This document shows positions 1 through 14,273 of a stretch of DNA of 64,000 bases, piece after piece. Numbering within the stretch: position 1 is the first letter of the stretch; each line of letters begins with the position of its first letter. The notes under the pieces are model-generated. The model did not search any database, was not told the origin of the DNA, and worked only from the letters and a program-made list of their open reading frames with translations. The position numbers and the translations under genes were made by a program. Origin of the DNA: Hyphomicrobiales bacterium (GTDB lineage: Bacteria > Pseudomonadota > Alphaproteobacteria > Rhizobiales > Rhizobiaceae); the NCBI GenBank assembly GCA_900489925.1, contig UEHQ01000034.1, positions 124,001 through 188,000 of the forward strand, in the 5' to 3' direction.

Positions 1-721
1 GCCGGTAGCGGTGGCCGGGATAGACCAGCCGCGCGGTGGAGACGATGTGCAGGCCTGACCAGGTGCGACGCCGGATCGTCAGACATGGCTCACTCCGCAG
101 GATCGTCAGAAGCCTGCACTCCCAGGCCTGTGGCATGGCCGCCTCGACGATGTGTTCGGAGCCGCTAAGCGGAGCTGCCGCGGTAAGATAGGCGTTCGGC
201 GTCAACGAGGAGAAATCTTGCTCGAGATAGTCGGGCGCAGCAGCCGGATTGACGAAGCGATCCTCGATCTGCACCGGCACGCCGTTTTCGGCATGGACGA
301 TCAGCGAGTGAAACACCGGTGCGCCGATGTCGAGCTCAAGCGCATCGGCAATCTCGGGAGAGGCCGGCTCTTGGGCAAGAACGATGATCGAAGCGTCGTG
401 CGTGTGGCCGCGTTCGGCGATTTCGTCAGCGATATTACGCACTTCGAAGAGCGCCGAATAGCCCTTGCGCTCGGCCACGAATGATCCAACGCCCTGGATG
501 CGGACCAGCTCGCCTTCGTTGGCGAGTTCGCGTAGCGCGCGGTTGGCGGTCATCTTGCTGACGCCGAGTTCCGAGACGAGCTCGTTTTCGGAGGGTACGC
601 GATGCTTCGGCGGCCACTCGCCGCTGTGGATGCGGTCGAGAATCATCTGCTTGACACCAGCGTAGAGCGGTGCGGTATCGTTTTCCGCAAGCTCGCGCTT
701 CATCTCGCCGGGACGCTTCAT
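1..721 (-). CDS. hutC: HutC-type GntR-family repressor, 3' end cut by window edge
   Basis: Reading the minus strand from the ATG at 721 gives 240 open codons that run off the left edge, so only the last few residues and the stop are missing (HutC proteins are usually about 240-250 residues). Residues about 15-85 form a GntR winged helix-turn-helix (VPSENELVSELGVSKMTAN, then RIQGVGSFVAE); residues about 95-240 match a UTRA effector-binding domain. HutC proteins repress histidine-utilisation genes and are released by urocanate. The gene is divergent from the amino-acid importer and lyase-like gene at 920-5614, its likely targets. A second in-frame ATG lies at 703. Whether the effector is urocanate is uncertain, because the lyase-like neighbour is not a canonical histidase. 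Confidence 0.85.
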   Translation of the reverse strand, partial: MKRPGEMKRELAENDTAPLYAGVKQMILDRIHSGEWPPKHRVPSENELVSELGVSKMTANRALRELANEGELVRIQGVGSFVAERKGYSALFEVRNIADEIAERGHTHDASIIVLAQEPASPEIADALELDIGAPVFHSLIVHAENGVPVQIEDRFVNPAAAPDYLEQDFSSLTPNAYLTAAAPLSGSEHIVEAAMPQAWECRLLTILRSEPCLTIRRRTWSGLHIVSTARLVYPGHRYR

Positions 722-793
722 TGCCTATTCCTTTTGCAGTAGCCGAGTCCGCTCGATAATCTGACTTTCCACTTGCATATCATAAAATATCTC

Positions 794-807
794 ATATGGT
801 ACCATAT
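794..807. promoter_or_regulatory. Candidate HutC operator (14-bp perfect palindrome)
   Basis: The sequence ATATGGTACCATAT is a perfect dyad in the 198-bp region between the divergent hutC-type gene and the importer. A weak -35 (TTGCAT, 773-778) and -10 (TATGGT, 796-801) with 17-bp spacing read toward the importer and overlap the palindrome. A central GT-AC dyad is typical of GntR-family sites. Assignment to this repressor is by position only. Confidence 0.55.
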
Positions 808-919
808 ACAACCTCCCGATTGGAGCTGCTCAACAAAAAAGCGGAACATCGGGCAAGCCGGCGCAGACCGGTATCATTTGGTCGCAAGGTCATCGCCAAT
901 TCAGAGGAGATTTTCATCG

Positions 920-1759
920 ATGAAATTCAACACGCTTCTTCTTTCCAGCGCCATTGCGCTTTCGGTTCTCGCCGCGCCGGTGGCGGCCAAGGATTGGAAG
1001 ACCGCCACCATCACGCTCGAGGGCGCCTATGCGCCTTGGAACATGACCAACGCCGACGGCACGCTTGGTGGCTTTGAGCCGGAGCTCGCCAAGGTTCTCT
1101 GCGAGCGCGCCAAGATCGACTGCAAGCTCGTGGCGTCCGATTGGGACGGCATGATCCCGGCGCTGAATGCCGGCAAGTTCGACGTGATCATGGATGCGCT
1201 GTCGATCACCGAAGACCGCAAGAAGGTCATCGGCTTCACGGTGCCTTACGCGGCAACCCCGGCTGCCTTTGCAACCGCCAAGGATAGTCCGCTGGCAAAC
1301 GCCGCAGGCACAGGCGCAACCATCAAAATGACGCCCGGCCAGACCGGCGTGAAGGAAATCGACGCACTGAAGGAAGCCTTCAAGGGCAAGACGATCGGCA
1401 TCCAGGCCGCAACCGTCTACGCCAAGTTCGTCTATGACAATTTCGGCGACATCGCCGAGATCCGCGAATACAAGACCGGCGCCGACCGCGATCTCGACCT
1501 GCAGAACGGCCGTATCGACCTCGGCTTCGATGACGCGGTCTATTTCGCCAATGCGTTCCAGTCCGCCAACGACTCGCTCGCCTTCACTGGCCCTGAAATC
1601 GTCGGCTCCATCTGGGGCGAGGGTGAAGGCCTTGGTGTTCGCCAGGCCGATACCGACCTGCGCGACAAGCTCAACGAAGCGATCAAGTCGGCTCTTGCCG
1701 ATGGCACCGTCAAGAACCTCTCGATGAAGTGGTTCAAGGTCGACGTCAGCCCGCAATAA
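920..1759 (+). CDS. Polar amino-acid ABC importer, periplasmic binding protein
   Basis: A 279-residue family 3 solute-binding protein (HisJ/ArgT/LAO type). The ATG at 920 is chosen over the longer open frame from 773 because it follows AGAGGAG and begins a clear signal peptide (KFNTLLLSS, hydrophobic core, cut near AAPVAA-KD at residue 20-23). The mature protein contains family features such as GAYAPWN near the start, DWDGMIPAL, DVIMDALSITEDRKK, and IGIQAATVYAKF. It should bind a cationic or aromatic amino acid or a derivative in the periplasm and hand it to the two permeases that follow. First gene of a six-gene run ending at 6785. The ligand cannot be read from the sequence. Confidence 0.88.
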   Translation: MKFNTLLLSSAIALSVLAAPVAAKDWKTATITLEGAYAPWNMTNADGTLGGFEPELAKVLCERAKIDCKLVASDWDGMIPALNAGKFDVIMDALSITEDRKKVIGFTVPYAATPAAFATAKDSPLANAAGTGATIKMTPGQTGVKEIDALKEAFKGKTIGIQAATVYAKFVYDNFGDIAEIREYKTGADRDLDLQNGRIDLGFDDAVYFANAFQSANDSLAFTGPEIVGSIWGEGEGLGVRQADTDLRDKLNEAIKSALADGTVKNLSMKWFKVDVSPQ

Positions 1760-1878: not shown

Positions 1879-2604
1879 ATGGCAATCTTGCAATTGATTG
1901 GATTCGGCTCCGGTGGCTGGGGCGCGCTGCTTCTGCTCGCCGCGCTGATGACGCTCTGCGTAACGGCAACGGCGCTGGCGATCGGCGCCGTTCTCGGCGC
2001 GATCATCGCAGCGGCAAAGCTCTCCGGGCAGCCGATCCTGATCGCGCTCGGCAACGTCTACACAACGGTGTTTCGCGGCGTGCCGGAACTGCTGATCATT
2101 TACCTGATCTATTTCGGCGGCTCGTCAGCCGTGACCTCGATCGGCAAGGCGATGGGCTATGAGGGCTTTCTCGGGATGCCCTCGTTCATCGCGGGTGCGC
2201 TGGCCGTCGGCATCATCTCGGGGGCCTACCAGGCGGAGGTCTTTCGCGGTTCCTTTCTCGCGATTTCCAGGGGGGAACTCGAGGCGGCATCGGCGATCGG
2301 AATGCCCCGGCGGCTTCGCTTTCGCCGGATCATCATCCCGCAAGTTCTCCGACTGGCTATTCCCGGTCTCGGTAACGTCTGGCAGCTCAGCCTCAAGGAC
2401 TCGGCACTGATTTCGGTGACCGGCCTCGCGGAGCTGATGCGCACCAGCCAGGTCGCTGCCGGCTCCACGCGCCAGTATTTCCTCTTCTTCATCGTCGGCG
2501 GCATTCTCTATCTCGTCCTGACCAGCCTGTCCGACCGGGTCTTCAACGGTGCCGAGCGGCGAGCCAATCGCAGCATGCCGACGGCCGCCATGGGCAAGGC
2601 GTGA
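1879..2604 (+). CDS. Polar amino-acid ABC importer, permease (HisQ/GlnP type)
   Basis: A 241-residue inner-membrane protein with about five hydrophobic segments. The family hallmark EAA loop is present (GELEAASAIGMPRRLRFRRI, about residues 133-152), which docks on the ATPase. The stretch FRGVPELLIIYLIYFG (about 65-80) is typical of HisQ/HisM permeases. It follows the binding protein by 119 bp, including the hairpin, and is followed after 10 bp by a second permease, so the pair should form the heterodimeric membrane channel of one importer. Confidence 0.88.
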   Translation: MAILQLIGFGSGGWGALLLLAALMTLCVTATALAIGAVLGAIIAAAKLSGQPILIALGNVYTTVFRGVPELLIIYLIYFGGSSAVTSIGKAMGYEGFLGMPSFIAGALAVGIISGAYQAEVFRGSFLAISRGELEAASAIGMPRRLRFRRIIIPQVLRLAIPGLGNVWQLSLKDSALISVTGLAELMRTSQVAAGSTRQYFLFFIVGGILYLVLTSLSDRVFNGAERRANRSMPTAAMGKA

Positions 2605-2614
2605 GGATCGCACA

Positions 2615-3319
2615 ATGGATTTCGCTTTTCTTTCCCAGACCATGATGACCCTGCTCAAGGCCGTTCCGATGACCTTGGCGCTATTTTCGCTTTCGGTCTT
2701 CTTCGGCGGTATTCTTGCCCTTCTGATCGTGTGGATGCGCGTCGGCGGAAATCCGATCCTGTCGGCGATCGCCAAGGGCTACATCTTCGTCTTTCGCGGC
2801 TCGCCGCTGCTCATCCAGATGTTTCTGGTGTTCTACGGCCTCGGCCAGTTCGGCTTCATCCGCTATTCGTTCCTGTGGCCGTTTCTGCGTGAGCCTTTCG
2901 TCTGTGCCGTCCTCTCCTTGGCGCTCTGCACCGGAGGCTATTCAGCCGAAATCTTCCGTGGCGGCATTCGCGCCGTCTCCCCCCGCGAAATCGAGGCAGC
3001 CCGCTCGATCGGCATGTCGGGGGCTCTCCTCGTGCGGCGTATCCTTGCGCCGATCGCTTTCCGCCATGCACTCCCGGCCTATTCGACCGAGATCGTGCTG
3101 ATGATGAAATCGACCGCGCTGGCAAGCCTTGTCACGGTCTGGGAGGTCACGGGCGTCGCCCAGCGGCTGATTTCGCAGACCTATCGGACGATGGAAGTCT
3201 TTCTGTGCGCCGCCATCATCTACCTCGTTCTCAACTTCATCATTCTGCAGGCGATGTCCCTGCTCGAATACTCGCTCTCGCGCCACCGCCGCGCCATTCC
3301 GCCGGCACTGAAGGCGTAA
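2615..3319 (+). CDS. Polar amino-acid ABC importer, permease (HisM type)
   Basis: A 234-residue permease of the same family as its upstream neighbour. The start at 2615 gives [10 protein letters not shown] and lies 10 bp after the upstream stop, preceded by GAGGATCG; the open frame extends upstream to 2549 but that part overlaps the previous gene. Visible motifs: [19 protein letters not shown] (about 55-73) and the EAA loop [20 protein letters not shown] (about 123-142). Expected partner of the 1879-2604 permease and of the ATPase at 3348. Confidence 0.88.
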
Positions 3320-3347: not shown

Positions 3348-4124
3348 ATGCCTGGCGTAACCCGACTTTCGGTCCGCAACATTCGCAAGAGCTTCGGTAC
3401 GCACGAAGTTCTGCGCGGGATTTCTCTCGACGCACAGGACGGCGACGTCATTTCCCTGCTCGGCGCCTCCGGCTCCGGCAAGTCGACCTTCTTGCGCTGC
3501 ATCAACCTTTTGGAAATAGCATCCGACGGCGACATCTTCGTCGACGGCGAAGAGATCCGCATGATTCACAAGGGCGGCGTTAGCCGGCCGGCGAGCCAGA
3601 AGCAGGTGGATCATATTCGCTCCGAACTCGGCATGGTCTTCCAGTCGTTCAATCTCTGGTCCCACATGACCATCCTGCAGAATGTGATCGAGGGGCCCGT
3701 CCACGTTCTCAAGCGGCCACGCGCAGAAGCCATCGCCGAAGCCGAGGCCCTTCTCGAAAAGGTGGGTATTGCCGACAAGCGGCATGCCTATCCCGCGCAT
3801 CTGTCCGGCGGCCAGCAACAGCGTGCGGCCATTGCGCGCGCGCTTGCCATGAAACCGAAGGTGATGCTCTTCGACGAGCCCACCTCGGCGCTCGACCCGG
3901 AGCTCGTCGGCGAAGTGCTGCGCGTCATGCGCGCCCTTGCCGAGGAAGGCATGACCATGCTGGTGGTGACGCATGAGATGAGCTTTGCCCGCAATGTCTC
4001 CAACCGCGTCGTCTTCATGAAGGAAGGGCTGGTCGAAAGCAGCGGTGCGCCTGATGAGATGTTCGGCGGCGGCGCGTCGCCGGCCTTCCGCCAGTTCATC
4101 GGCCATTTCGGAAACGGACAATGA
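3348..4124 (+). CDS. Polar amino-acid ABC importer, ATP-binding protein (HisP type)
   Basis: A 258-residue ABC ATPase. Walker A is GASGSGKST (residues 39-47), the signature is LSGGQQQR, Walker B is [12 protein letters not shown], followed by the H-loop in VVTHEMSFA. The spacing FLRCINLLE after Walker A is typical of polar amino-acid ATPases. It powers the importer formed with the two preceding permeases. Its stop overlaps the start of the lyase-like gene in ATGA (4121-4124), so uptake and breakdown are translationally coupled. Confidence 0.9.
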
Positions 4125-5614
4125 CCATCAGCATCGAGGGGACGCTAGGCTGGCGCGAGATCGCGCGGGTCGGCATGGGAGAAGAGCTTGCCCTTTCGCA
4201 AGGTGCCTGGGACCGCGTGGACAATGCCAGCCGCATCGTCGAACGCATCGTCGAAACCGGCGTGCGTGCCTACGGCGTCAACACCGGCGTCGGGGCTTTG
4301 TCGGACACCGTCGTCGACCGCGCTTCACAGAGCCGGCTGTCGCGCAATATTATCCTCAGCCATGCCTGCGGCGTTGGTCCCCTGCTCGAGGCCCGCGAGG
4401 TCCGCGCGATTATTGCAGCGCAGGTCGCCAATTTCGCGCACGGACATTCCGGCGTACGTCAGGAAATCCTTCGGCATCTCCTGACGTTTCTCGCCAAGGA
4501 CTGCATTCCCGAAGTGCCGTCGAAGGGATCCACCGGCTACCTCACCCACAACGCCCATACGGCGCTGGTTCTGATCGGTGAGGGGCGCGCTCGCGTTGCG
4601 GGTCGGTCCCTGAATGGCCGTGACGCACTGGACGCCATCGGTCTGCAACCCTTGGTTCTTGGCGCCAAGGAAGGGCTGAGCCTTGTCAACGGCACAGCCT
4701 GCGCAACGGGGCTCTCCAGCGTCGCAATGGCGCGGGCCGAACGGCTCCTGGACTGGGCCGACGCGATTGCCGCGCTGACGCTTGAGGCGGTCGGCTGCCA
4801 GATGGCCGCATTCGACGAGGCCGTGCTTGCCCTTCGTCCGTCGCCTGGCATTGCAAAGGTCGGCGCGTCGCTGCGCCATCGCCTCGAGGGCAGCGGCCTG
4901 ATTGCCGCTGCAATCGGCCGGCGCACCCAGGATGCGCTGAGCCTGCGCTCGGTGCCGCATGCCCACGGCGCGGCCCGCGATGTGTTCGAGCGGTCTGGCG
5001 AGGTGGTCGATCAGGAGCTGGCCTCCGTTACCGATAACCCGGCCGTTTCCGGGACAGCCGACAACCCGGTTGTCTCCTCCGAGGCGCATGCCGTCGCGCC
5101 GGCTTTGGCGCAGGCTGCCGACAGCCTAGCTATTGCCTTGGCGCAGATCGCCGCGATGAGCGAGCGACGGATGGACCGCCTGGTCAATCCGCTGGTCAGC
5201 GGTCTGCCGCCGTTTCTCGCCAGTGATGCCGGAAGCAATTCCGGCTTCATGATTGCGCAATACACGGCGGCAGCGCTCAGCAATGAAAACCGCCGCCTTG
5301 CAGCGCCCGCAGCGCTCGATGGCGGCCTAACCTCCGGCTTGCAGGAGGACTTTCTCGCCCATCCGACGGCGGCAGCCAACAAGCTGCTCTCGGTGATCGA
5401 CAATGCCGAATACATCCTTGCGATCGAACTGATGGCAGCCGCCCAGGCGCACGACTTTCTGGCGCCGGCTGCATCACGCGCCCGTGGGACCGATGCCGTT
5501 CACGCGGTTGCGCGCGCTGCCGTTTCGCATTACGCGGATGACCGCCCCCTGTCCGGCGATATGGAAAGGCTGCGAACGCTCATCGCAGACACCGTGCCAC
5601 CAGCAGCAGCTTGA
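4121..5614 (+). CDS. Aromatic amino-acid lyase family protein (HutH-like) without the canonical MIO triad
   Basis: A 497-residue protein of the histidine/phenylalanine ammonia-lyase fold. Family landmarks are kept: AYGVNTGVG (Tyr), NIILSHACG (His), [11 protein letters not shown] (Asn), QDALSLR (Gln and Arg), and [14 protein letters not shown]. However, the Ala-Ser-Gly that cyclises to the MIO electrophile in classical histidases is replaced: residues 136-144 read GSTGYLTHN, giving Ser137-Thr138-Gly139. The histidase Tyr280 position is Leu273. So it may act without MIO, or on a different substrate from histidine. It shares an ATGA overlap with the importer ATPase and is 10 bp from a flavoprotein oxidase. 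Membership of the fold is clear; the reaction is not. Confidence 0.85.
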
Positions 5615-5624
5615 AGGAACTCAC

Positions 5625-6785
5625 ATGACCGCAGAATATGATGTCGCCGTGATCGGCCTTGGCGCGATGGGAAGCGCCGCCCTTGCCTTTCTTTCGGCGC
5701 GTGGCGTCAAGACGATCGGTATCGATGCCTATTTCCCGGCCCATGCCTTGAGTTCATCGCACGGAGACAGCCGCCTTATCCGCCTCGGCTACTTCGAGGA
5801 TCCTTCCTATGTGCCGCTGCTGCGCCGCGCCTATCAGAACTGGCGTGCGCTGGAGGCGCGGCTTCGCAGCGATATCCTGACGATCACTGGCGTCCTGCAG
5901 ATCGGCGCTCCCGACAGCAAGATCGTCACCGGCACCCGCGCGTCATGCGCGATGCACGGTCTCGCCCATGAGGTGTTGGACAAGGCGGAGACGGCGCGTC
6001 GCTTTCCGGCCTTCCAGCTCGACAGCGACGATATCGCGGTTCTCGATCCGCAGGGCGGCTATCTCAGGCCGGAAGCAGCCGTGATGGGTTATATCAAACT
6101 CGCCGCCGAAGACGGTGCCGTTCTGCATTTTGGCGAGCGTGTCAGCGCGATCGAGCCCGACGATGGCGGTGTGACCATCCTTTCGGCGGCTGGGCGCTAC
6201 CGGGCTCGCAAGGTCATCGTGGCAACGGGATCATGGATCGCCGAGCTGGCGCCAACGTTGAAGGCGCATGCCGTTCCCATCCGTCAGGTTGTCGCCTGGT
6301 ACCAGCCGCGCGACGGCTTCGCCACGGAGCCGCACCGGATGCCGTGTTTCCTCCGGGACGAGGGATCGGATGGCTCGTATTTCGGCTTTCCGGCGATCGG
6401 TGGCGATGGTGTGAAAGTCGGTCGACATGCGCATTTTCGTGAGCCGATCGATCCGAACCAGCCGAATCCTGTGGTCAACGATGCCGACACGGCACTCCTC
6501 GACGGCTTCATCGCCAAGCGCGTGCCGGCTGCCGCCGGTTTACGGGTCAATGCCGTGACCTGCCGCTACACGATGTTGCCGAGCGAGGATTTTCTGCTCG
6601 ACTTCCTTCCCGGCAATTCGAATGTCGTCGTCGCGTCTCCGTGCTCCGGCCATGGCTTCAAGTTCACCAGCGTCGTCGGGGAAATCCTTGCGGACCTCGC
6701 CCTGGACGGAGGCACGGCCCTGCCGACGGATGCCTTCACTTTTGCCGCGATGGACCGTTTCATCGAAAGCCGAAAAGCGGCCTGA
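5625..6785 (+). CDS. solA: FAD-dependent oxidoreductase, SolA / monomeric sarcosine oxidase family
   Basis: A 386-residue DAO-family flavoprotein, the usual length for N-methyltryptophan or monomeric sarcosine oxidases. The start at 5625 follows GAAGGAACTCAC and puts the dinucleotide-binding motif IGLGAMGS near the N-terminus. SHGDSRLIRLGYFEDPSYV (about residues 45-63) and SGHGFKFTSVVGE near the C-terminus match the family. Cys313 in TCRYT sits where sarcosine oxidase attaches FAD covalently. Such enzymes demethylate or oxidise secondary amines to give an aldehyde, amine and H2O2. Ten bp after the lyase-like gene, it suggests that the imported substrate is N-methylated or becomes a secondary amine. 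The exact substrate is not shown. Confidence 0.8.
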   Translation: MTAEYDVAVIGLGAMGSAALAFLSARGVKTIGIDAYFPAHALSSSHGDSRLIRLGYFEDPSYVPLLRRAYQNWRALEARLRSDILTITGVLQIGAPDSKIVTGTRASCAMHGLAHEVLDKAETARRFPAFQLDSDDIAVLDPQGGYLRPEAAVMGYIKLAAEDGAVLHFGERVSAIEPDDGGVTILSAAGRYRARKVIVATGSWIAELAPTLKAHAVPIRQVVAWYQPRDGFATEPHRMPCFLRDEGSDGSYFGFPAIGGDGVKVGRHAHFREPIDPNQPNPVVNDADTALLDGFIAKRVPAAAGLRVNAVTCRYTMLPSEDFLLDFLPGNSNVVVASPCSGHGFKFTSVVGEILADLALDGGTALPTDAFTFAAMDRFIESRKAA

Positions 6786-6791
6786 TCCGTG

Positions 6792-7865
6792 TCACTCGCA
6801 GCGCACTCCGGTCGAAGGATCGAACAGGTGCACGGCCTCCGGGTCGAACGCTAGCGTCAGCGGTTCGCCGCTCACTACCTGGGTGCGTGGCGGAAGCGCC
6901 GCCATCAGGCGCTGCGAGCCTGCAAAGGCAGTCACCACCAGCTCAGGGCCCGTCAACTCGGCGACCTCGCATTTGGCCGTAATGGACGAGCCGTCCCCAC
7001 CAAGGCGAAGCGCTTCCGGTCGAATGCCAAGAACGAGCTTGTGGCCATTGTTAAGGTTCGCTTTCACCGTTGTCGGTACCGGCAGGACGCTGTCGCCGCC
7101 GTCGATCTGTAACTGGCCGTCGCGGACGGTGACGTTCAGCAAGTTCATCGGCGGAGCGCCGACGAAGGTGGCGACATAGAGGGTCGCAGGACGATTGTAG
7201 ATCTCCTCGGGCGTCGCGAGTTGTTCGATGCGACCGTCCCGCATCACGGCGATACGGGTGGCAAGCGTCATCGCCTCGATCTGGTCGTGCGTGACGTAAA
7301 CCACGGTCGTCTTCAGCATCTGGTGCAGACGCTTCAGCTCGGTGCGCATTTCCATGCGCAGCTTCGCGTCGAGGTTGGATAGCGGTTCATCGAAAAGAAA
7401 AACCTGCGGCTTGCGCACGAGCGCGCGGCCGATCGCGACGCGCTGCCGCTGGCCGCCCGAAAGCTGGCTTGGCTTGCGGTCCAGCAGGTTTTCAATCTGC
7501 AGCAATCTGGCCGCCTCGCGCACTGCCTTATCACGCACGTCCGCGGCGACTTTGCGCATTTCGAGACCGAAGCCAATATTCCGGTGCACGGTCAGGTTCG
7601 GGTAAAGCGCGTAGGACTGAAACACCATGGCGATGTCGCGATCCTTCGGGTGCACCCCGAGGATCGAACGTCCGCCGATCCTGATGTCGCCGCTCGTCGC
7701 CTCGGCAAGTCCGGCGATGATGTTGAGCAGCGTGGACTTGCCACAGCCGGACGATCCGAGCAGGACAAGGAATTCGCCACTCTCGAGCGCGATATCGATG
7801 CCTTTCAGCGTTTCGACCTCGCCGTAGGTCTTGCGAATAGTCTGGATTTCAAGCGCGCTCATCAA
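6792..7865 (-). CDS. Carbohydrate ABC importer ATPase (UgpC/MalK type)
   Basis: A 357-residue ATPase with a nucleotide-binding domain and a C-terminal regulatory OB (TOBE) domain. Walker A is GSSGCGKST (37-45), signature LSGGQRQR, Walker B VFLFDEPLSNLD, H-loop VVYVTHDQIEAM. It is the last gene of the minus-strand operon 12849 to 6792 and overlaps the kinase by 4 bp in ATGA. It should drive the two permeases at 9808-11537. MalK-type ATPases can serve several importers, so it might also power the ATPase-less importer at 51173-54332; that is inference. It is convergent with the flavoprotein gene, 6 bp away. Confidence 0.9.
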   Translation of the reverse strand: MMSALEIQTIRKTYGEVETLKGIDIALESGEFLVLLGSSGCGKSTLLNIIAGLAEATSGDIRIGGRSILGVHPKDRDIAMVFQSYALYPNLTVHRNIGFGLEMRKVAADVRDKAVREAARLLQIENLLDRKPSQLSGGQRQRVAIGRALVRKPQVFLFDEPLSNLDAKLRMEMRTELKRLHQMLKTTVVYVTHDQIEAMTLATRIAVMRDGRIEQLATPEEIYNRPATLYVATFVGAPPMNLLNVTVRDGQLQIDGGDSVLPVPTTVKANLNNGHKLVLGIRPEALRLGGDGSSITAKCEVAELTGPELVVTAFAGSQRLMAALPPRTQVVSGEPLTLAFDPEAVHLFDPSTGVRCE

Positions 7866-8788
7866 ACGGCCTCTTCGGAAACGGCAGATCCGCCATATGA
7901 ACGGGGAAGGGTGGATATGGCGCGCGAGGCAACCCGTGTGCCCACCTGCAAGCAGGCGGCAAGCGGTTTGTCGGCGGCAAGTGCAGCGAGGAACCCGGCG
8001 TTAAAGACATCGCCGGCGCCAATCGTATCCACGACCTTCACCACGGGTGCGTCGACGGAAAACAACTGGCCGTCTGGGCCGATCGCAAGCGCTCCATCCG
8101 GGCCGCGCTTGACCACGACGATTGCGCCTTCGGGCATGTGCGACCTGATTTCACGCGCGGCTTCGATCGGATCATCAAGGCCGGCGAGCGTCGTCGACTC
8201 GACCTCGTTGAGGAGCGCGATACCGCAGCGCGAGAGCCAGCGTCGGGTAGCGGCGCAATTTTTGTCCGTCCAGCCATCCAGCGGCCAGCCGGTATCGAGC
8301 GCCATCGTGATCTGGTGCTGTGTCGCCCAGTCGAAGAGTTCATCGTAGGCATTGGTCAGGTCGTCCGTCAGAAACGAGCCGCAGAGAAGCCCGTAGCCAC
8401 CGGAAAGCGTGGCGCCATCGAGAACAGCGAAAACATCCGCGAGGCTGAAACGCGGAAGGTGGCCACGGGTCGTGAAGAAGGTGCGCTCGCCGTCCGGATG
8501 CGTGATGCCGACGGACAGCGTCGTACCTTCCGGTCTGATCGGCCATCTGGCGGCTCTATTGCCGAAGGCTTCGCTCAGCCAGCGCCCGAACTGGTCACTT
8601 CCGACATTGGCAGCAATCTCGAAATTGATGCCAAGCGCCTCCCAGGCGAGCGCGCTGTTTCCGGCAGACCCGCCAACTCGCAACTCGTCGTGATCGACAA
8701 TGATTTCCGTGCCGGCCTTCGGCCAGGGTGCCGCGGGGCCGAGGATGAGGTCGACATTGACGTTGCCGATGACAGCTAGCGGCCGCAT
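7862..8788 (-). CDS. PfkB-family sugar kinase
   Basis: A 308-residue ribokinase/PfkB-family kinase. It begins MRPLAVIGNVNVDLILGPAA, the usual opening, has the glycine-rich region GGSAGNSALAWEALG (about 40-54), and ends with the second PfkB signature DTIGAGDVFNAGFLA that carries the catalytic Asp. It should phosphorylate a furanose-type sugar or a sugar conjugate in the cytoplasm. It sits directly between a SIS-domain protein and the importer ATPase. A PfkB kinase plus SIS protein is the arrangement of fructosamine (Amadori product) operons such as frl, as well as of some amino-sugar operons. Confidence 0.85.
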   Translation of the reverse strand: MRPLAVIGNVNVDLILGPAAPWPKAGTEIIVDHDELRVGGSAGNSALAWEALGINFEIAANVGSDQFGRWLSEAFGNRAARWPIRPEGTTLSVGITHPDGERTFFTTRGHLPRFSLADVFAVLDGATLSGGYGLLCGSFLTDDLTNAYDELFDWATQHQITMALDTGWPLDGWTDKNCAATRRWLSRCGIALLNEVESTTLAGLDDPIEAAREIRSHMPEGAIVVVKRGPDGALAIGPDGQLFSVDAPVVKVVDTIGAGDVFNAGFLAALAADKPLAACLQVGTRVASRAISTLPRSYGGSAVSEEAV

Positions 8789-9811
8789 TCATTCGCTCCG
8801 TGTAATCTTGGTCGAACGCACGGGCGTGCCGGCGTCGTCGACCCGGGCGTCGGCAAAGGCGATCATCAGTCGCTGTGCCGTCGGCAGCATCGCGAAGACC
8901 GCCGCAAGACCGGTTGCCGGCTTGAATGGCAAGGTGACGGTGCCGGGGACTGGCTCTTGGCCTGATGCGTCGAAGACGATGACGGGAGCCCCGGTCTCGA
9001 CGGCTGACACGGCCATGGCCGTCACCAGGCTCGCCGTATTGTCCTTGCCGCGGAAGAGGACCACGCCGATCGTCGGCCCAAGCATTTCCATCGGCCCGTG
9101 CCGAAGCTGGCCGCCTTCGAGCGAGAAGCAAGGGCGACGCGAAAGCTCCGTCAGGCCAAGCGCTAGCGCCTCGGCCACACCCTGTAAGCGCCGGCCCGAT
9201 GTTACCACAGTGGCAACATTTTCCAGCGCGGCAAGCGCATCAGCTATGCCGGGTTCTTCCGGAGCGGTCAGCGCTGCGATCGCAGCGCTCGGCTCCTCGC
9301 CCAACGCTGCGAGGATAGCGAGGTGCAGCGCGAAGGTGACGGTGAGACTGCGCGTTGCGGCAAAGGCGAGTTCGGTACCGCCGACGCCGACGAGAGAGGG
9401 CGCCGTGCGGGCCAGGAACGAACCACCCTCGAGCGTCAGGCCGAAGGTATCCGCGGTGCCGCCGGTTTCGTCGAACCAGCGCACGACCTCAGCGCTTTCG
9501 CCCGATTGCGATGTGACGAGCACCGTGCGTCCTTCGAGCGACAGCGGCTCCCCCAGTTGTTCGGACAGCGGCAAGGCGATCGCGTCGATGCCGAGCGCGC
9601 GATAGAGCGGCTCAACGGCGCGGCCAACGGCATGGGAGCCGCCCATGCCGAGCAGCAGCAGTCGCCCGGTCTTCTTGAGCGAGGCTGCAACGGCTTGAGC
9701 CGCGGCAGCGGCGCCTTCGTAGGAGGCAAGCGCATCGGCGTGCTGGCGGGCCATCTCGCGATCGATTGCAACAAGCCCGCTGGGTCGTGTTTTCTGATTG
9801 GTCATGGTCAT
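8789..9811 (-). CDS. SIS-domain sugar isomerase/deglycase-like protein
   Basis: A 340-residue protein with two SIS (sugar isomerase) domains, like the isomerase half of GlmS but without the glutaminase domain. Visible features are MGGSHAVGRAVEPLYR (about residues 57-72), the phosphosugar-binding VTSQSGESAEVVRW (about 98-111), and GGQLRHGPMEML in the second half, equivalent to the HGP segment of GlmS, AgaS and FrlB. It could remove an amine from a phosphorylated aminosugar or split a 6-phosphofructosamine. The start overlaps the permease stop (9808-9811); another ATG lies two codons downstream. Confidence 0.82.
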   Translation of the reverse strand: MTMTNQKTRPSGLVAIDREMARQHADALASYEGAAAAAQAVAASLKKTGRLLLLGMGGSHAVGRAVEPLYRALGIDAIALPLSEQLGEPLSLEGRTVLVTSQSGESAEVVRWFDETGGTADTFGLTLEGGSFLARTAPSLVGVGGTELAFAATRSLTVTFALHLAILAALGEEPSAAIAALTAPEEPGIADALAALENVATVVTSGRRLQGVAEALALGLTELSRRPCFSLEGGQLRHGPMEMLGPTIGVVLFRGKDNTASLVTAMAVSAVETGAPVIVFDASGQEPVPGTVTLPFKPATGLAAVFAMLPTAQRLMIAFADARVDDAGTPVRSTKITRSE

Positions 9812-10653
9812 CCCTTGACGCCGCCGCTGGTCAGCCCCGAAATCAGGGCACGTTGCATGACAAGACCGACCAGAACCGGTGGCAGGGCGGCAAGCACACC
9901 AGCGGTCGCGATCAGTCCGTAGTCGGAGACACGACCGCCGGCCAGATCGGCAATGGCAACCGTGAGTGTCTTGGCGCGCTGGTCGGAGGTGAACAACAGC
10001 GCATAGAAGAATTCGTCCCAGGCGAGCAGGAAGGCGAACAGCGCTGAGGTTGCCATGACAGGCATGGCGAGCGGCAGCGTGATGATCCGGAGCGTCTGGA
10101 ACAGGCCGGCGCCATCGATCATCGCTGCCGCTTCAATCTCTTTGGGAATGGAATCGAAGCCGGATTTCATCAGCCAGGTCGTGAAGGGCGCCAGGATCGT
10201 CAGATAGACGAGCGCGAGACCGAAGACGTTGTTCAGCATGCCGAGGTACGACAGACCCATGTAAAGCGGCACGGCCAGCGCAACCGGCGGCAGCATGTAG
10301 GTCGCAATCACCATCGACAGCGACCAGCCGACGGAGGGCGTGCGCGAGACAGCCCAGCCAGCGGGAATGGCAAGCGCAATCCCCGCGATCGTCGCCATGC
10401 CCGCGACTTCGATGCTGTTGCGCAGCGACGAGGTGAAGGCTGCACCGGCGCTGTTTTCCAATGTCGAGAGCAGGACGGCGTAACGCGAAAAGTCAGCGGT
10501 CTGTGGCCACCAGCGCAACGGCTTGGCAGCAAGGTCGGCAGCCGGCGAAATGCTCATGATGAAGAGCCAGAGGATCGGCGCGAGAATGACGGCCGCCAGA
10601 ACCAGCGCACACACGTAGATGAAGATCGAAAAGAGCGGGCTTCTGCGTTCCAT
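9808..10653 (-). CDS. Carbohydrate ABC importer permease (MalG type)
   Basis: A 281-residue permease with about six membrane segments. A longer open frame extends to 11553, but that part is only a shadow of the upstream permease; the start at 10653 begins MERRSPLFSIFIY and forms a 1-base TGATG overlap with that permease's stop. The EAA loop is EIEAAAMIDGAGLFQTLRII (about residues 170-189), and LAWDEFFYALLF near the C-terminus is typical of MalG-like subunits. Partner of 10653-11537. Confidence 0.9.
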   Translation of the reverse strand: MERRSPLFSIFIYVCALVLAAVILAPILWLFIMSISPAADLAAKPLRWWPQTADFSRYAVLLSTLENSAGAAFTSSLRNSIEVAGMATIAGIALAIPAGWAVSRTPSVGWSLSMVIATYMLPPVALAVPLYMGLSYLGMLNNVFGLALVYLTILAPFTTWLMKSGFDSIPKEIEAAAMIDGAGLFQTLRIITLPLAMPVMATSALFAFLLAWDEFFYALLFTSDQRAKTLTVAIADLAGGRVSDYGLIATAGVLAALPPVLVGLVMQRALISGLTSGGVKG

Positions 10654-11537
10654 CAGGCGGCACTCCCAGCGGTCTTGCGGACAAGGACGCCGTAGGCGGC
10701 AGCAAGCACCGTCACCAGCAGCGTCACCATCAGCGCGAGCGACGCCCCGGAGCCCGCCCGCTGGAAGGAGAACGCCTCCTGGTAAACCAGGATCGAAAGT
10801 GTGCGCGTGCTGTTTGCAGGGCCGCCGCGCGTCATCACCCAGATGATGTCGAAAACCTTGAACGCTTCGATCGTGCGCAGAACCAGCGCCACCATCAAGG
10901 GGCCCGCGAGGTAGGGCAGGATGACGAAGCGGAACCGGGAAAAAGGCCCGGCGCCATCGACCAGAGAGGCTGCCGTGATGTCTCGTGGAACCGCCTGCAG
11001 GGCGGCAAGCGCGATCAGCGCCACCAGGGGAAAGTTCTTCCAGCAATCCGCCACAATGAGCGCGGCCATCGCCGTGCCGGGTTCGCCAAGCCAAGAGCGG
11101 TAGGCGTCGATCAGGCCGAGTTGCGTGAGTGCTGCGTTGAGCGCGCCATATTCGGGATTGTAGATCAGTCGCCACAGGGTCGCGTTGACCACCGTCGGCA
11201 GAGCCCAGGGAAGGATCATGAGGGCTCGCAGGACCGCGCGTCCGTGGAAATTCTGGTTGAGAAGCAGAGCCGCGAGAACGCCGAGCACCATTTCGGCGGC
11301 AACCGAGACAATCGCGAACCAGGCCGTCGTTGCGAGCGTACGCTGGAAGTTTGATCCGGAAATCATCTTCACGTAATTGCCGAAACCGACGAAATTGCCC
11401 GCGGTGCCAACAAGCTTGGCATCGGTAAAGGAGAGGGTCACGGTGTCGACCAGCGGCCATCCGATGACGGCAATCATCACCACAAGCAGCGGCAACATCA
11501 ACAGCCACGCACGGGTTGTCATCCAGGTGCCGGACAT
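10653..11537 (-). CDS. Carbohydrate ABC importer permease (MalF/UgpA type)
   Basis: A 294-residue inner-membrane permease with about six hydrophobic segments, starting MSGTWMTTRAWLLMLPLLV. The EAA-type loop DITAASLVDGAGPFSRFRFV (about residues 187-206) contacts the ATPase. IEAFKVFDIIWVMTRGGPAN (about 227-246) is a hallmark of this family. It follows the binding protein by 73 bp, a gap filled by a strong hairpin, and overlaps the next permease by one base. Confidence 0.9.
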   Translation of the reverse strand: MSGTWMTTRAWLLMLPLLVVMIAVIGWPLVDTVTLSFTDAKLVGTAGNFVGFGNYVKMISGSNFQRTLATTAWFAIVSVAAEMVLGVLAALLLNQNFHGRAVLRALMILPWALPTVVNATLWRLIYNPEYGALNAALTQLGLIDAYRSWLGEPGTAMAALIVADCWKNFPLVALIALAALQAVPRDITAASLVDGAGPFSRFRFVILPYLAGPLMVALVLRTIEAFKVFDIIWVMTRGGPANSTRTLSILVYQEAFSFQRAGSGASLALMVTLLVTVLAAAYGVLVRKTAGSAA

Positions 11538-11574
11538 GGGCGCCCTCTCTCATTTCATCGGAATGGGATGGAAG

Positions 11575-11598
11575 CCAGGCGGCGGTCGCGCCGCCTGG
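11575..11598 (-). promoter_or_regulatory. Strong hairpin between binding-protein and permease genes
   Basis: CCAGGCGGCG (11575-11584) and CGCCGCCTGG (11589-11598) form a perfect 10-bp stem with a 4-base loop, 13 bp after the binding-protein stop on the minus strand. No T tract follows. It probably protects or sets the level of the binding-protein message relative to the permeases. Confidence 0.65.
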
Positions 11599-11610
11599 TG
11601 TTTGCAGGCC

Positions 11611-12849
11611 TTAGAGGCCGCTGTTGTCGGCAGCCGACTTCAGCGCATCTTCCGGCGACGACTGGCCGAGCAGAGATTCCTGGATCGCCTGCTGGAGGGC
11701 GGTCGAAAGCTCCTGATACTTCGGCGTCGTCGGGCGCGGATACATGGCTGCGAGGCCGACCTTGGCCGCGGAAATCAGCTCTTCCTGACCCTTGGTCACA
11801 GCCGGATCTTCATAGGACGATGCCCAGATCGGCAGGCTGAGCTTGGCATACTGATTCTGCGTCGCCTGCGAGGTCATGAAGGTGATGTACTTCCAGGCTT
11901 CGTCAGGATGCTTGCTGGCGGCCGTGATGCCGAGACCCATCGAACCGTTGACGGCGGATGCCTCGCTCTTGCCAGCAACACCCGGCGCCGGCACGACGCC
12001 GACCTTGCCCGCGACCTTGCTGTCCTTCGGGTCATTGGCCATGTTGTACATGTAGGTCCAGTTCAGCGCGAAGGCGGCGTCCCCGTTTTCAAAGACCTTG
12101 CGAACATCCTCCTCGAGGAATTCCTTGGAGTTCGGGTTGGTCAGGCCGGACTTGTAGCTCGAGACCATGTAGTTCAGCGCGTCGAGACCGCCGCCGCTCT
12201 GGAAGGCAGGCTTGCCGTCCTTCAGGAAGTCGCCCTTATAGGCGCTGACGAGGGTGGTATAGTCGCAGATCGCGGCTTCCGCCTGCGACCAGCTCCAGGC
12301 GATCGGCGTTGCCAGCAGGCCCTTGTCCTTGATGGTCTTCGCCTGCTCGGTCAACTCGTCCCAGGTCTTCGGCGGGGTCTTGATGCCGGCCTTTTCGAGG
12401 ATTTCCTTGTTGTAGAAGAGGTACTTCGTGTCGAGGATCCAAGGCATGCCGTAGTATTTGCCGTCATACTGGACGGTCGTCCAGGCACCCGGCAGGACAC
12501 CCTTCTTCATGTCGTCGCCGATCCGCGAGGATACATCAACGAGAACGTTGTTGCTCGCATACTCGGCCGGCCAGATGACGTCGAACAGGACGACGTCGTA
12601 ACCGCCACCCGAACCCTGCGCGAGCACGGTCTTGTCGTGCAGGCCTTCATAGGGAACGAATTCGAGATTGACCTTGACGTCGGGATTGGCCTTGGTGAAA
12701 GCGTCCGTCATGGCGCGGACATCAGCCTCGCTATAGGCCGCCTGCGCCATGAACAGCGCATTGATCGTCGTATCGGCAAAGGCATGCGGGGCAAAGGACG
12801 CTCCGATCAGGGCTGCGCCGAGCAGTGTCTTGTTTAAGGATTTCAACAT
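11611..12849 (-). CDS. Carbohydrate ABC importer, extracellular solute-binding protein
   Basis: A 412-residue family 1 solute-binding protein. The ATG at 12849 is preferred to the one 8 codons upstream because GGAGG sits 5 bases before it and it starts a good signal peptide (MLKSLNKTLLGAALIGASFA, cleavage near HAFAD, residue 25-27). The mature part shows GGGYDVVLFDVIWPAEYA, VPYEG, YYGMPWILDTKYLFYNKEIL and KTPPKTWDELTEQAK, typical for disaccharide or oligosaccharide binders. First gene of the minus-strand sugar operon and divergent from the ROK regulator at 13068. Confidence 0.9.
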   Translation of the reverse strand: MLKSLNKTLLGAALIGASFAPHAFADTTINALFMAQAAYSEADVRAMTDAFTKANPDVKVNLEFVPYEGLHDKTVLAQGSGGGYDVVLFDVIWPAEYASNNVLVDVSSRIGDDMKKGVLPGAWTTVQYDGKYYGMPWILDTKYLFYNKEILEKAGIKTPPKTWDELTEQAKTIKDKGLLATPIAWSWSQAEAAICDYTTLVSAYKGDFLKDGKPAFQSGGGLDALNYMVSSYKSGLTNPNSKEFLEEDVRKVFENGDAAFALNWTYMYNMANDPKDSKVAGKVGVVPAPGVAGKSEASAVNGSMGLGITAASKHPDEAWKYITFMTSQATQNQYAKLSLPIWASSYEDPAVTKGQEELISAAKVGLAAMYPRPTTPKYQELSTALQQAIQESLLGQSSPEDALKSAADNSGL

Positions 12850-13004
12850 TCCAGCCTCCAGTTTTTTTGACATTCACGCATTTCCGAGGGCGGCTGTGCG
12901 TCGCCATCGGCTATCGAAGAGGCACCAGTGGGCGGTGCCGAATTTCGGAGCGTCGTCCGAGCATTCTCGCTCTCTGCGTTCCCTGGAACTCTCCGGTTCC
13001 TTAT

Positions 13005-13025
13005 TAAGTCAATTGTCTTGACTTA
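13005..13025. promoter_or_regulatory. Candidate ROK-regulator operator (inverted repeat)
   Basis: TAAGTCAA (13005-13012) and TTGACTTA (13018-13025) form a perfect 8-bp inverted repeat around TTGTC. Each arm contains a TTGACT that could be the -35 element of one of the two divergent transcripts (sugar importer on minus, ROK gene on plus). The location fits a site where the ROK protein controls both genes. Confidence 0.6.
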
Positions 13026-13067
13026 TTTCTTCTTCAATATTCTACTGGTGTCAAGAGGGAATTGCGT

Positions 13068-14273
13068 ATGAACGACGTCCGCCCCATCAGGGCCAAGAGC
13101 GGTACCAACCACGAAGGCACCAGTGCCCATAACCGGCGCGTGATCATCGACGCGTTGAGGGTCAATGGTGCCTTGTCGCGGGCCGATCTGGCGCGGGCGA
13201 CGAGACTGACGAAGCAGACCGTTTCGAACATCATCGATGAACTGGAGCGCGACGGTCTCGTGAGTTCGCAGGAGGCGGTGAGAAAGGGTAGGGGGCAACC
13301 ATCGACGCCCTACGGCCTCGTGCCGGAAGGTGCATTTGCCATCGGCCTCCAGATCGACCGCTACACCACGCGGGCGCTTGCCGTCGACTTGGTCGGCAAC
13401 GTGCTGACCCGTGCAGAGGCGAACCTTCCTGCTGGTGGTCCGGCCAAGGGCGTCAAGGTCATTCTTGACCTGGTGGAAACGGTGCGCCGCGATCTCTCGG
13501 GCCTGGCGAAACAGTCGGAGCGTCGGCTTGTGGGTCTTGGCGCGGCAATGCCGGGGCCATTCGGCCTCGAGACGGCGGGTGACGACCCGTGGATGATGGG
13601 CGCATGGCAGAGCTTTCCACTTTTGGAGACTTTGGCAACCGGAACGGGGTTGAATGTCGGACTGCAGAACGACGCTGCCGCCTGTGCCACGGCCGAGCGG
13701 ATGATCGGCGCCGCGCACGGGCTCGATCACGCGGTATGTCTCTATCTCGGCTACGGTATCGGCGCCGGCCTCATCCTGGGCGGCGAGCTCTATAGCGGAG
13801 GAAACGGCAATGCCGGCGAGATCGGCATGGCGCTGTTGTCGCCAAGCGGCAACGCCACGCCGCTCGAACACCGGGCCGCGCTTTCGTCGCTGTACGAGCA
13901 TCTGGAAATCGATCCTGCCGATCCAACGGTCTACGACACAGTCAACAATCTCGCGGCCAAGGATGATCCGAGGGTCCGGTCCTGGATCGAGGCGGCGGCA
14001 ACGGATCTGCGCTGGAGCGTGCATCTGATCGAGACCATCTTCGATCCTCAGACGGTGATCCTGTGCGGCGGAGCACCGGAGGCGCTGGCAAGCCGCCTGC
14101 TTGCCGCCATGCAGCCGCTTCTGCCGTCGATCGCCGATCGTCGCGGCCGATCGATCCCGCGTCTGCAGCTCGGTATGACGGATCCGTGGGTCGTGGCGCT
14201 CGGTGCAGCGGCCGAGCCGATCAGCCGGGCCTTCGATCCACGGTTCTCGGCGATCCTCAAGGATTCGCTCTAA
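13068..14273 (+). CDS. ROK-family transcriptional regulator
   Basis: A 401-residue repressor with an N-terminal winged helix-turn-helix (about residues 23-80: LSRADLARATRLTKQTVSNI) and a C-terminal ROK (sugar-kinase-like) domain, with LGYGIGAGLILGGELYSGGN and NAGEIGMALLS in the ROK signature region. The ATG at 13068 follows AGAGGG; an in-frame TTG lies 6 bases upstream. It is divergent from the carbohydrate importer operon and likely senses the imported sugar or its phosphate. Confidence 0.88.
   Translation: MNDVRPIRAKSGTNHEGTSAHNRRVIIDALRVNGALSRADLARATRLTKQTVSNIIDELERDGLVSSQEAVRKGRGQPSTPYGLVPEGAFAIGLQIDRYTTRALAVDLVGNVLTRAEANLPAGGPAKGVKVILDLVETVRRDLSGLAKQSERRLVGLGAAMPGPFGLETAGDDPWMMGAWQSFPLLETLATGTGLNVGLQNDAAACATAERMIGAAHGLDHAVCLYLGYGIGAGLILGGELYSGGNGNAGEIGMALLSPSGNATPLEHRAALSSLYEHLEIDPADPTVYDTVNNLAAKDDPRVRSWIEAAATDLRWSVHLIETIFDPQTVILCGGAPEALASRLLAAMQPLLPSIADRRGRSIPRLQLGMTDPWVVALGAAAEPISRAFDPRFSAILKDSL

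Follow-up and report, generated by a model that had tools for sequence, protein, structure and literature searches.

One end of a 64,000-nucleotide stretch of DNA from a Rhizobiaceae bacterium (the window; G000:C69:124001-188000, that is, positions 124,001 to 188,000 of contig UEHQ01000034.1 in assembly GCA_900489925.1, genome size 6.1 Mb) carries an operon in which genes for an importer, a look-alike of histidine ammonia-lyase (histidase, HutH) and a flavoprotein oxidase stand beside a divergent hutC gene. The look-alike, called here the window lyase, lacks the residues that form the 4-methylideneimidazole-5-one (MIO) electrophile, and we consider it on balance probable that it converts an Nalpha-methylated histidine to urocanate and a methylated amine without MIO, as a HutC-controlled entry to histidine catabolism. 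Hercynine would be the first substrate candidate, though not firmly, with mono- and dimethylhistidine next.

The loss of the electrophile can be read from the loop that carries it. Aligned with HutH of Pseudomonas putida, which has KGSVG-ASGD-LAPLAH there, the loop of the window lyase is three residues shorter, the Ala-Ser-Gly-Asp of HutH giving way to the single residue Tyr140. A preliminary description of this DNA had placed Ser137-Thr138-Gly139 at the position of the Ala-Ser-Gly triad, a placement that we correct here, as the alignment pairs these residues with the conserved Ser-Val-Gly just upstream. Because Tyr140 alone replaces the ASGD stretch, Thr138 is not a failed MIO serine, and Thr138 as a MIO variant was ruled out. 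The same description was right in reporting a Leu (Leu273) for HutH Tyr280 and in counting the other landmarks as kept, with Tyr51, His81, Asn190, Gln270 and Arg276 all present (HutH Tyr53, His83, Asn195, Gln277 and Arg283), but it missed the change of HutH Phe329 to Ala324. Met377 and Glu409 correspond to HutH Met382 and Glu414, which together with His83 we take to be imidazole-site residues of HutH; at this site the window lyase is histidase-like and differs from ergothionase.

In its overall fold the protein remains close to HutH. The best Foldseek match of its AlphaFold2 model (predicted local distance difference test score 88.3) is P. putida HutH (1gkj, template modelling (TM) score 0.92), with ergothionase matching at 0.89; the pocket is unreadable from the model because residues 398-413, Glu409 among them, are poorly predicted. 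Identity is 35.2% to P. putida HutH (1gkm) and 29.5% to the ergothionase of Treponema denticola (6s7j). Despite its membership of PF00221, the window lyase falls under the curated histidase cut-offs, scoring 461.1 bits against TIGR01225 (hutH), where 539.15 are required. By alignment and model, it is a histidase fold without the MIO precursor. This is not a peculiarity of one gene: among 153 lyase rows collected, 117 are of the GY-L loop type, the window gene (L007) included and mostly its close relatives, and all 117 combine absence of Ala-Ser-Gly with Leu at HutH position 280. Tyr280 is found in 32 of the 33 rows with Ala-Ser-Gly, the remaining one being an incomplete sequence, and the other three rows (6s7j, L006 and L126) are MIO-less with different loops and Leu. 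Judging from these rows, loss of the triad together with Leu is not chance but a real, fixed feature.

We then turned to the gene neighbourhood, using 80 loci, all in named genomes and the best of at least 573 (some with flanks that end at contig ends). In 68 of the 80 a hutC gene is found no more than 6 kb from the lyase, and hut enzyme genes are present in the flanks of about 9 kb in 31. A binding protein of the window type is nearby in 57 loci and one of the OpuAC type in ten, eight named Agrobacterium and two Rhizobium (L083 and L096); the lyases of these ten are 73-76% identical to that of the window. The oxidase gene accompanies the lyase in 37 loci, all 37 with the window-type binding protein. 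As described before, the ATPase and lyase genes overlap in the window, ATGA at 4121-4124 being both the stop of the former and the start of the latter, and of the 57 loci with a window-type ATPase, 48 likewise show a lyase match that opens with ATGA. Because the loci are related, these counts are not independent events. The hut genes lie to the left or right and on either strand, and in L068, L072 and L073 directly ahead of the lyase with no importer between; since the arrangements differ, the hut link arose more than once or was reshuffled.

The regulator itself belongs to the HutC family by TIGR02018 (295 bits, cut-off 220), with domains PF07702 and PF00392, while it falls below the cut-off of a second HutC model, NF011575 (297 bits against 424). 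Such a regulator is shared with the hut operons of rhizobia and enterobacteria; the window operon differs from these in encoding an importer, a MIO-less lyase and an oxidase, and no HutU, HutI or HutF. In all ten OpuAC-type operons, TTGTATAGACAA precedes the importer genes at close distance; TGTATANACA has no other match in the 194,826 bases of the ten loci on the strand read. This operator is one base off the published HutC consensus, and the same 12-mer occurs twice in L120, an Escherichia coli plasmid hut operon with a normal Ala-Ser-Gly histidase. The hut promoter of the source genome contains TGTATATACA. According to a passage of PMC12977541, the site of HutC in Pseudomonas is TGTA-N2-TACA, and urocanate releases the repressor from it. 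With a repressor that answers to urocanate ahead of the lyase operon, urocanate is suggested as the product. Taken at the level of gene order and motifs, the context suggests a place in the histidine pathway, and the window-type lyase most likely serves the hut pathway.

From these observations we infer the following course of reaction. The importer would bring in Nalpha-methylated L-histidine, and the beta proton would be removed by the conserved histidase machinery, Tyr51 and His81 acting while Arg276 holds the carboxylate and Met377 and Glu409 flank the imidazole; these roles are assumed by analogy with HutH. The methylated amine would depart directly, no electrophile being needed because the nitrogen is already a quaternary or held-protonated leaving group, and Tyr140, Leu273 and Ala324 may create the space that MIO, Tyr280 and Phe329 fill in HutH. 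Urocanate would then relieve HutC and enter the route of HutU, HutI and HutF.

The last gene of the operon may serve the partly methylated substrates. It had been described as a sarcosine-oxidase-family flavoprotein with the cysteine for covalent flavin adenine dinucleotide, and Cys313 is indeed the equivalent of C315 in MSOX. All residues of the MSOX catalytic list (H45, R49, R52, K265, H269, C315, Y317 and K348) are conserved, and the protein scores above the cut-off of NF008425 (N-methyl-L-tryptophan oxidase; 257 bits) and below that of TIGR01377 (263 bits against 480). It differs from MSOX in Met245, here Leu, and Tyr254, here Phe, and in its location in a hut-type operon. Demethylation by such a SolA-like flavoprotein is plausible, and its residues would fit lower methylation states of histidine: the enzyme would strip methyl groups off mono- and dimethylhistidine, leaving histidine for the ordinary HutH. 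A two-armed rhizobial pathway, in which a MIO-free hercynine lyase releases trimethylamine and urocanate while an N-methylhistidine oxidase handles the lower states, both repressed by HutC, is a tentative extension that we judge possible but rather unlikely in full. If true, rhizobia could draw carbon and nitrogen from all three EgtD products of fungi and actinomycetes; neither a hercynine lyase nor such a pathway was found described in the open-access literature searched. EgtD (PF10017) was not found in the source genome, and the compound is therefore probably taken up from outside. Fungi and actinomycetes are producers of hercynine, according to a title in the reference list of PMC11089744.

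What the binding proteins say about the substrate is less favourable to hercynine. The closest solved relatives of the window's substrate-binding protein (SBP) are octopine- and nopaline-binding proteins (5ore, 195 bits; 5ot8, 185 bits). RIDLxFDD is found in all 57 relatives of this SBP, with Asp where OccJ has Asn and NocT has Ser, at the site that is presumably Asp161 of HisJ. For the OpuAC type, the one protein searched (L080) has Lmo1422 and then ergothioneine-binding EgtUC as closest solved relatives. The cage of EgtUC is described in a passage of PMC9732360. In our alignment all ten OpuAC SBPs keep its E375 and R379 (imidazole and carboxylate) and have aromatic residues at 293 and 419.

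Several observations weigh against the proposed reaction, or against hercynine in particular. At three of the five EgtUC cage positions (N339, Y341 and Y443), all ten OpuAC SBPs have Asp, Asp and Gln, and the SBPs of L119 and L124 have the same three residues, together with E375, R379 and an aromatic residue at 293. In methyl-lysine readers, acids in the cage favour lower methylation. By this analogy, acids at the amine sites of both SBP types suggest an amine that still bears hydrogen, so that the window-branch importers may favour lower methylation states, or even histidine, over hercynine. For the window branch, with acids at its cage positions, the argument from a betaine importer to a quaternary substrate was tested and not upheld; nor are betaine-type importers proof in general, because HutXWV of Sinorhizobium meliloti, a ProU-family importer, reportedly takes histidine. 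The regulatory evidence has gaps as well. The consensus operator TGTAN2TACA occurs in none of the 55 window-type intergenic regions that were aligned, the window included, and a consensus HutC operator was not found in the window promoter, where the best match has three mismatches. Sites with at most one mismatch (plus strand; the scanned motifs require flanking TT/AA) were absent from 21 of 24 further loci, L119, L120 and L122 alone having one and L118, L121 and L124 none, and from all ten rhizobial loci containing hut genes. hutC alone is no proof of urocanate, because it also lies beside the unlike lyase of L128, and nine of the 80 loci (Mesorhizobium and Aminobacter) lack every partner sought.

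A sister branch of lyases offers a contrast within itself. In L121 and L135, a hutC gene lies about 3-5 kb off, the importer is of the ProX type, and Met382 and Tyr386 (HutH numbering) are kept; L121 also has hutF. L118 has Gln382 and Leu386 and is accompanied by S-methyl-thiohydantoin desulfurase-like and hydantoinase-like genes, a urocanase homologue and hydrolases. The SBPs of L118 and L121 retain all three Trp of what we take to be the betaine box of E. coli ProX. As far as residues and gene partners can tell, this contrast fits a plain imidazole for the L121/L135 type and a 2-sulfur imidazole for L118, and hercynine would be a natural guess for the L118/L121 branch.

Ergothionase provides a mechanistic precedent and one of the two better-placed rivals. 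The preliminary description had named it as a MIO-free lyase of the histidase fold, and T. denticola 6s7j does have the loop SSIG-E-GD and QDPLSF with Leu at Tyr280; the absence of MIO is also stated in a passage of PMC13405746. The window lyase is predicted to work alike, a histidine derivative losing a methylated amine. If it were an ergothionase itself, ergothioneine (or ergothioneine sulfonate) would lose trimethylamine and yield thiourocanate. Besides the common fold, the lack of MIO and the shared Leu, this would agree with the thiohydantoin-type pathway genes around the sister lyase L118, and a paper on an ergothioneine-sulfonate pathway of Agrobacterium radiobacter is among the references of PMC13405746. 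The loops differ, however (GEGD against GY), identity is low, and where ergothionase has Ser195, Gly382 and Lys386 in HutH numbering the window lyase has Asn190, the histidase-like Met377 and Tyr381. Lys386, presumably an essential ergothionase residue, is present in 6s7j, L006, L126 and L128, with Ala in L129. No S-methyl-thiohydantoin desulfurase or hydantoinase domain was detected in the seven genes scanned at the window locus, whereas they are present at the L006 locus, and HutC and the hut genes indicate urocanate. We rejected the direct assignment as the best reading and regard this alternative as unlikely.

The genome has a better candidate for that role. It encodes three lyases of the family: a canonical Ala-Ser-Gly-type HutH adjoining HutU, HutI, HutF and HutC, the window lyase, and L006, which has the loop GCAD, Lys at 386 and 6s7j as best solved relative. 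Its partners (L006:7188-14419) comprise a hydantoinase and a zinc hydrolase, both recognised by eye, an S-methyl-thiohydantoin desulfurase-like gene found by Pfam and a urocanase homologue. Since L006 is ergothionase-like and lies with thiohydantoin-type genes, it is the better own-genome candidate for an ergothioneine-type job, and its locus may encode a pathway for ergothioneine or thiourocanate in this Rhizobium. In a 37-row tree, the window group stands apart from 6s7j, which forms a branch of its own with L006, L126, L128 and L129 (support 100/100). Taken alone, this tree suggests separate losses of MIO; the approximately unbiased test, however, does not reject one clade holding all MIO-less rows (p-AU 0.566), so that MIO may have been lost once or several times. 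In a 33-row tree that leaves out the long rows L006, L126, L127 and L133, one MIO change suffices; the 37-row tree needs two when a Mycetohabitans aminomutase (Thr-Ser-Gly) is counted as MIO.

As improbable as an ergothionase, in our estimate, is a lyase that turns over histidine itself without MIO, supplied by an importer for histidine. The HisJ-type Asp of the window SBP and the acids in the cage of the Opu-type SBPs would suit this, as would L119 (Klebsiella) and L125 (Priestia), where a MIO-less lyase is the sole HutH-like gene listed beside hutU and hutI. Against it, ammonium as such leaves poorly where MIO is lacking, as is established for HutH, and the genome already has a canonical HutH with its hut partners, so that a second plain histidase would be redundant.

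Two further substrates seem still less probable. If the substrate were a histidine with a different Nalpha substituent, for example an opine-like N-carboxyalkyl histidine yielding urocanate and an amino acid, this would be in keeping with the octopine- and nopaline-binding relatives of the SBP and with the ability of secondary amines to leave without MIO in other lyases; the idea sits poorly with the Asp that replaces Asn of OccJ and Ser of NocT, with an unrelated SBP type in ten loci although their lyases are so similar, and with an MTOX-type oxidase, which suits N-methyl groups. A non-histidine substrate, for example another betaine or an aromatic N-methyl amino acid (N-methyltryptophan or hypaphorine), is no likelier: the oxidase exceeds the NCBIfam N-methyl-L-tryptophan oxidase cut-off, and the MIO-less L128 lies with hutC and with CoA-transferase, MaoC and SDR genes of the sort expected for an aryl acrylate, but hut genes are near the window-type lyases, sister operons have the HutC-type operator, and the HutH imidazole-site residues are retained in the window lyase and not in L128. 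Of the substrate class first proposed, an N-methylated histidine-like or aromatic betaine, the former part thus stands on HutC, hut genes, sister-operon operators and the imidazole site, and the aromatic betaine in general has become less likely.

The features of the operon are collected in Table 1. In the 10 kb to the left of the window, nadA-, nadB-, nadC- and PhnD-like genes were recognised by eye; this by-eye reading, which involved no family search, revealed no further catabolic genes. On the other side (6792-14273), the cluster has as neighbours what looks like a minus-strand operon for sugar uptake (MsmK-like ATPase, PfkB-like kinase, SIS-like protein, permeases and an SBP) and a plus-strand gene for a ROK-like regulator, all named by eye from open reading frame translations.

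Table 1 Features of the operon in the window (nucleotide positions within the window)
Feature	Position	Strand	Remarks
hutC, GntR/UTRA repressor of HutC family, divergent	2..721	-	3' end beyond window edge
Conserved promoter element CATATGGTACCATATACAAC, block CATATGGTACC.TATACAAC	793..812	.	hutC-importer intergenic region; candidate operator, not a consensus HutC site
SBP, periplasmic, family 3	920..1759	+	PF00497
ABC (ATP-binding cassette) permease, HisQ/ArtQ-like	1879..2604	+	PF00528; NF011714 176 bits, under cut-off
ABC permease, ArtM/HisM-like	2615..3319	+	PF00528; NF008336 180 bits, under cut-off
ABC ATPase, HisP-like	3348..4124	+	PF00005; NF007908 336 bits, under cut-off
Histidase-fold lyase without MIO, 497 aa	4121..5614	+	PF00221 472 bits; predicted Nalpha-methylated histidine lyase
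Codons K135-G-S-T-G-Y140, shortened loop where HutH has KGSVG-ASGD	4523..4540	+	
Leu273 codon (= HutH Tyr280)	4937..4939	+	alignment
Flavin amine oxidase, SolA/MTOX-like; predicted to oxidise N-methyl amino acids	5625..6785	+	NF008425 412 bits

Close relatives of the window lyase in named collections come from Rhizobium and its neighbours. Among same-genus genomes, 54 of 59 have a close relative, with best matches 77-84% identical, and 40 genomes from other families of the order yielded one relative at 58%, the rest being at or below about 40%. In one of the 54 (G041, C23:37391-38817) the lyase is in two overlapping pieces in different frames (83% and 74%), possibly a pseudogene or an assembly error. 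Outside this group, the GY-L loop recurs in a Gram-positive: a plasmid of Priestia megaterium (L125:549-9452) encodes a MIO-less lyase with it, together with HutU, HutI, two MFS transporters and an agmatinase-family gene. A hut-type cluster on a Klebsiella plasmid (L119:1-12295) combines hutI, hutU, hutD, hutC, hutF and an OpuAC importer with a MIO-less lyase as the sole HutH-like gene listed within that stretch; 199 Klebsiella plasmid records have lyase matches, counted irrespective of loop, and some are annotated as ordinary hutH. Two further Rhizobium loci, L126 (1301-9374) and L128 (1991-12673), have MIO-less lyases with the loops GAGD and GAAD, ornithine cyclodeaminase-family genes and betaine-type SBPs that retain most cage residues (Asn339, Tyr341, Tyr443 and an aromatic residue at 293, with Ala419 in L128 and Gly375 in L126). 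L126 also has two LLM flavoenzymes, L128 the hutC, CoA-transferase, MaoC and SDR genes, and their substrates are perhaps other aromatic betaines. On pSymA of S. meliloti (L129:6893-8533), a MIO-less lyase with the loop GQAD, annotated hutH, has nearby a gene annotated as dimethylsulfoniopropionate lyase as well as genes of ABC transporters.

Together, these results suggest that an operon found in many soil- and plant-associated rhizobia encodes a MIO-less histidase look-alike that splits a methylated histidine. If this is true, a widespread rhizobial gene is misnamed, plasmid records that annotate its close relatives calling them histidine ammonia-lyase although they lack the triad behind the group that defines this enzyme, and the degradation of hercynine or N-methylhistidine would gain genes. 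The fold would gain a group of enzymes that bind a plain imidazole and cleave a C-N bond with no help from MIO, and with them a clean comparison with HutH and ergothionase on how the amine leaves. Rhizobia would also be linked to the methylated histidines of soil fungi and actinomycetes, possibly as an extra source of trimethylamine.

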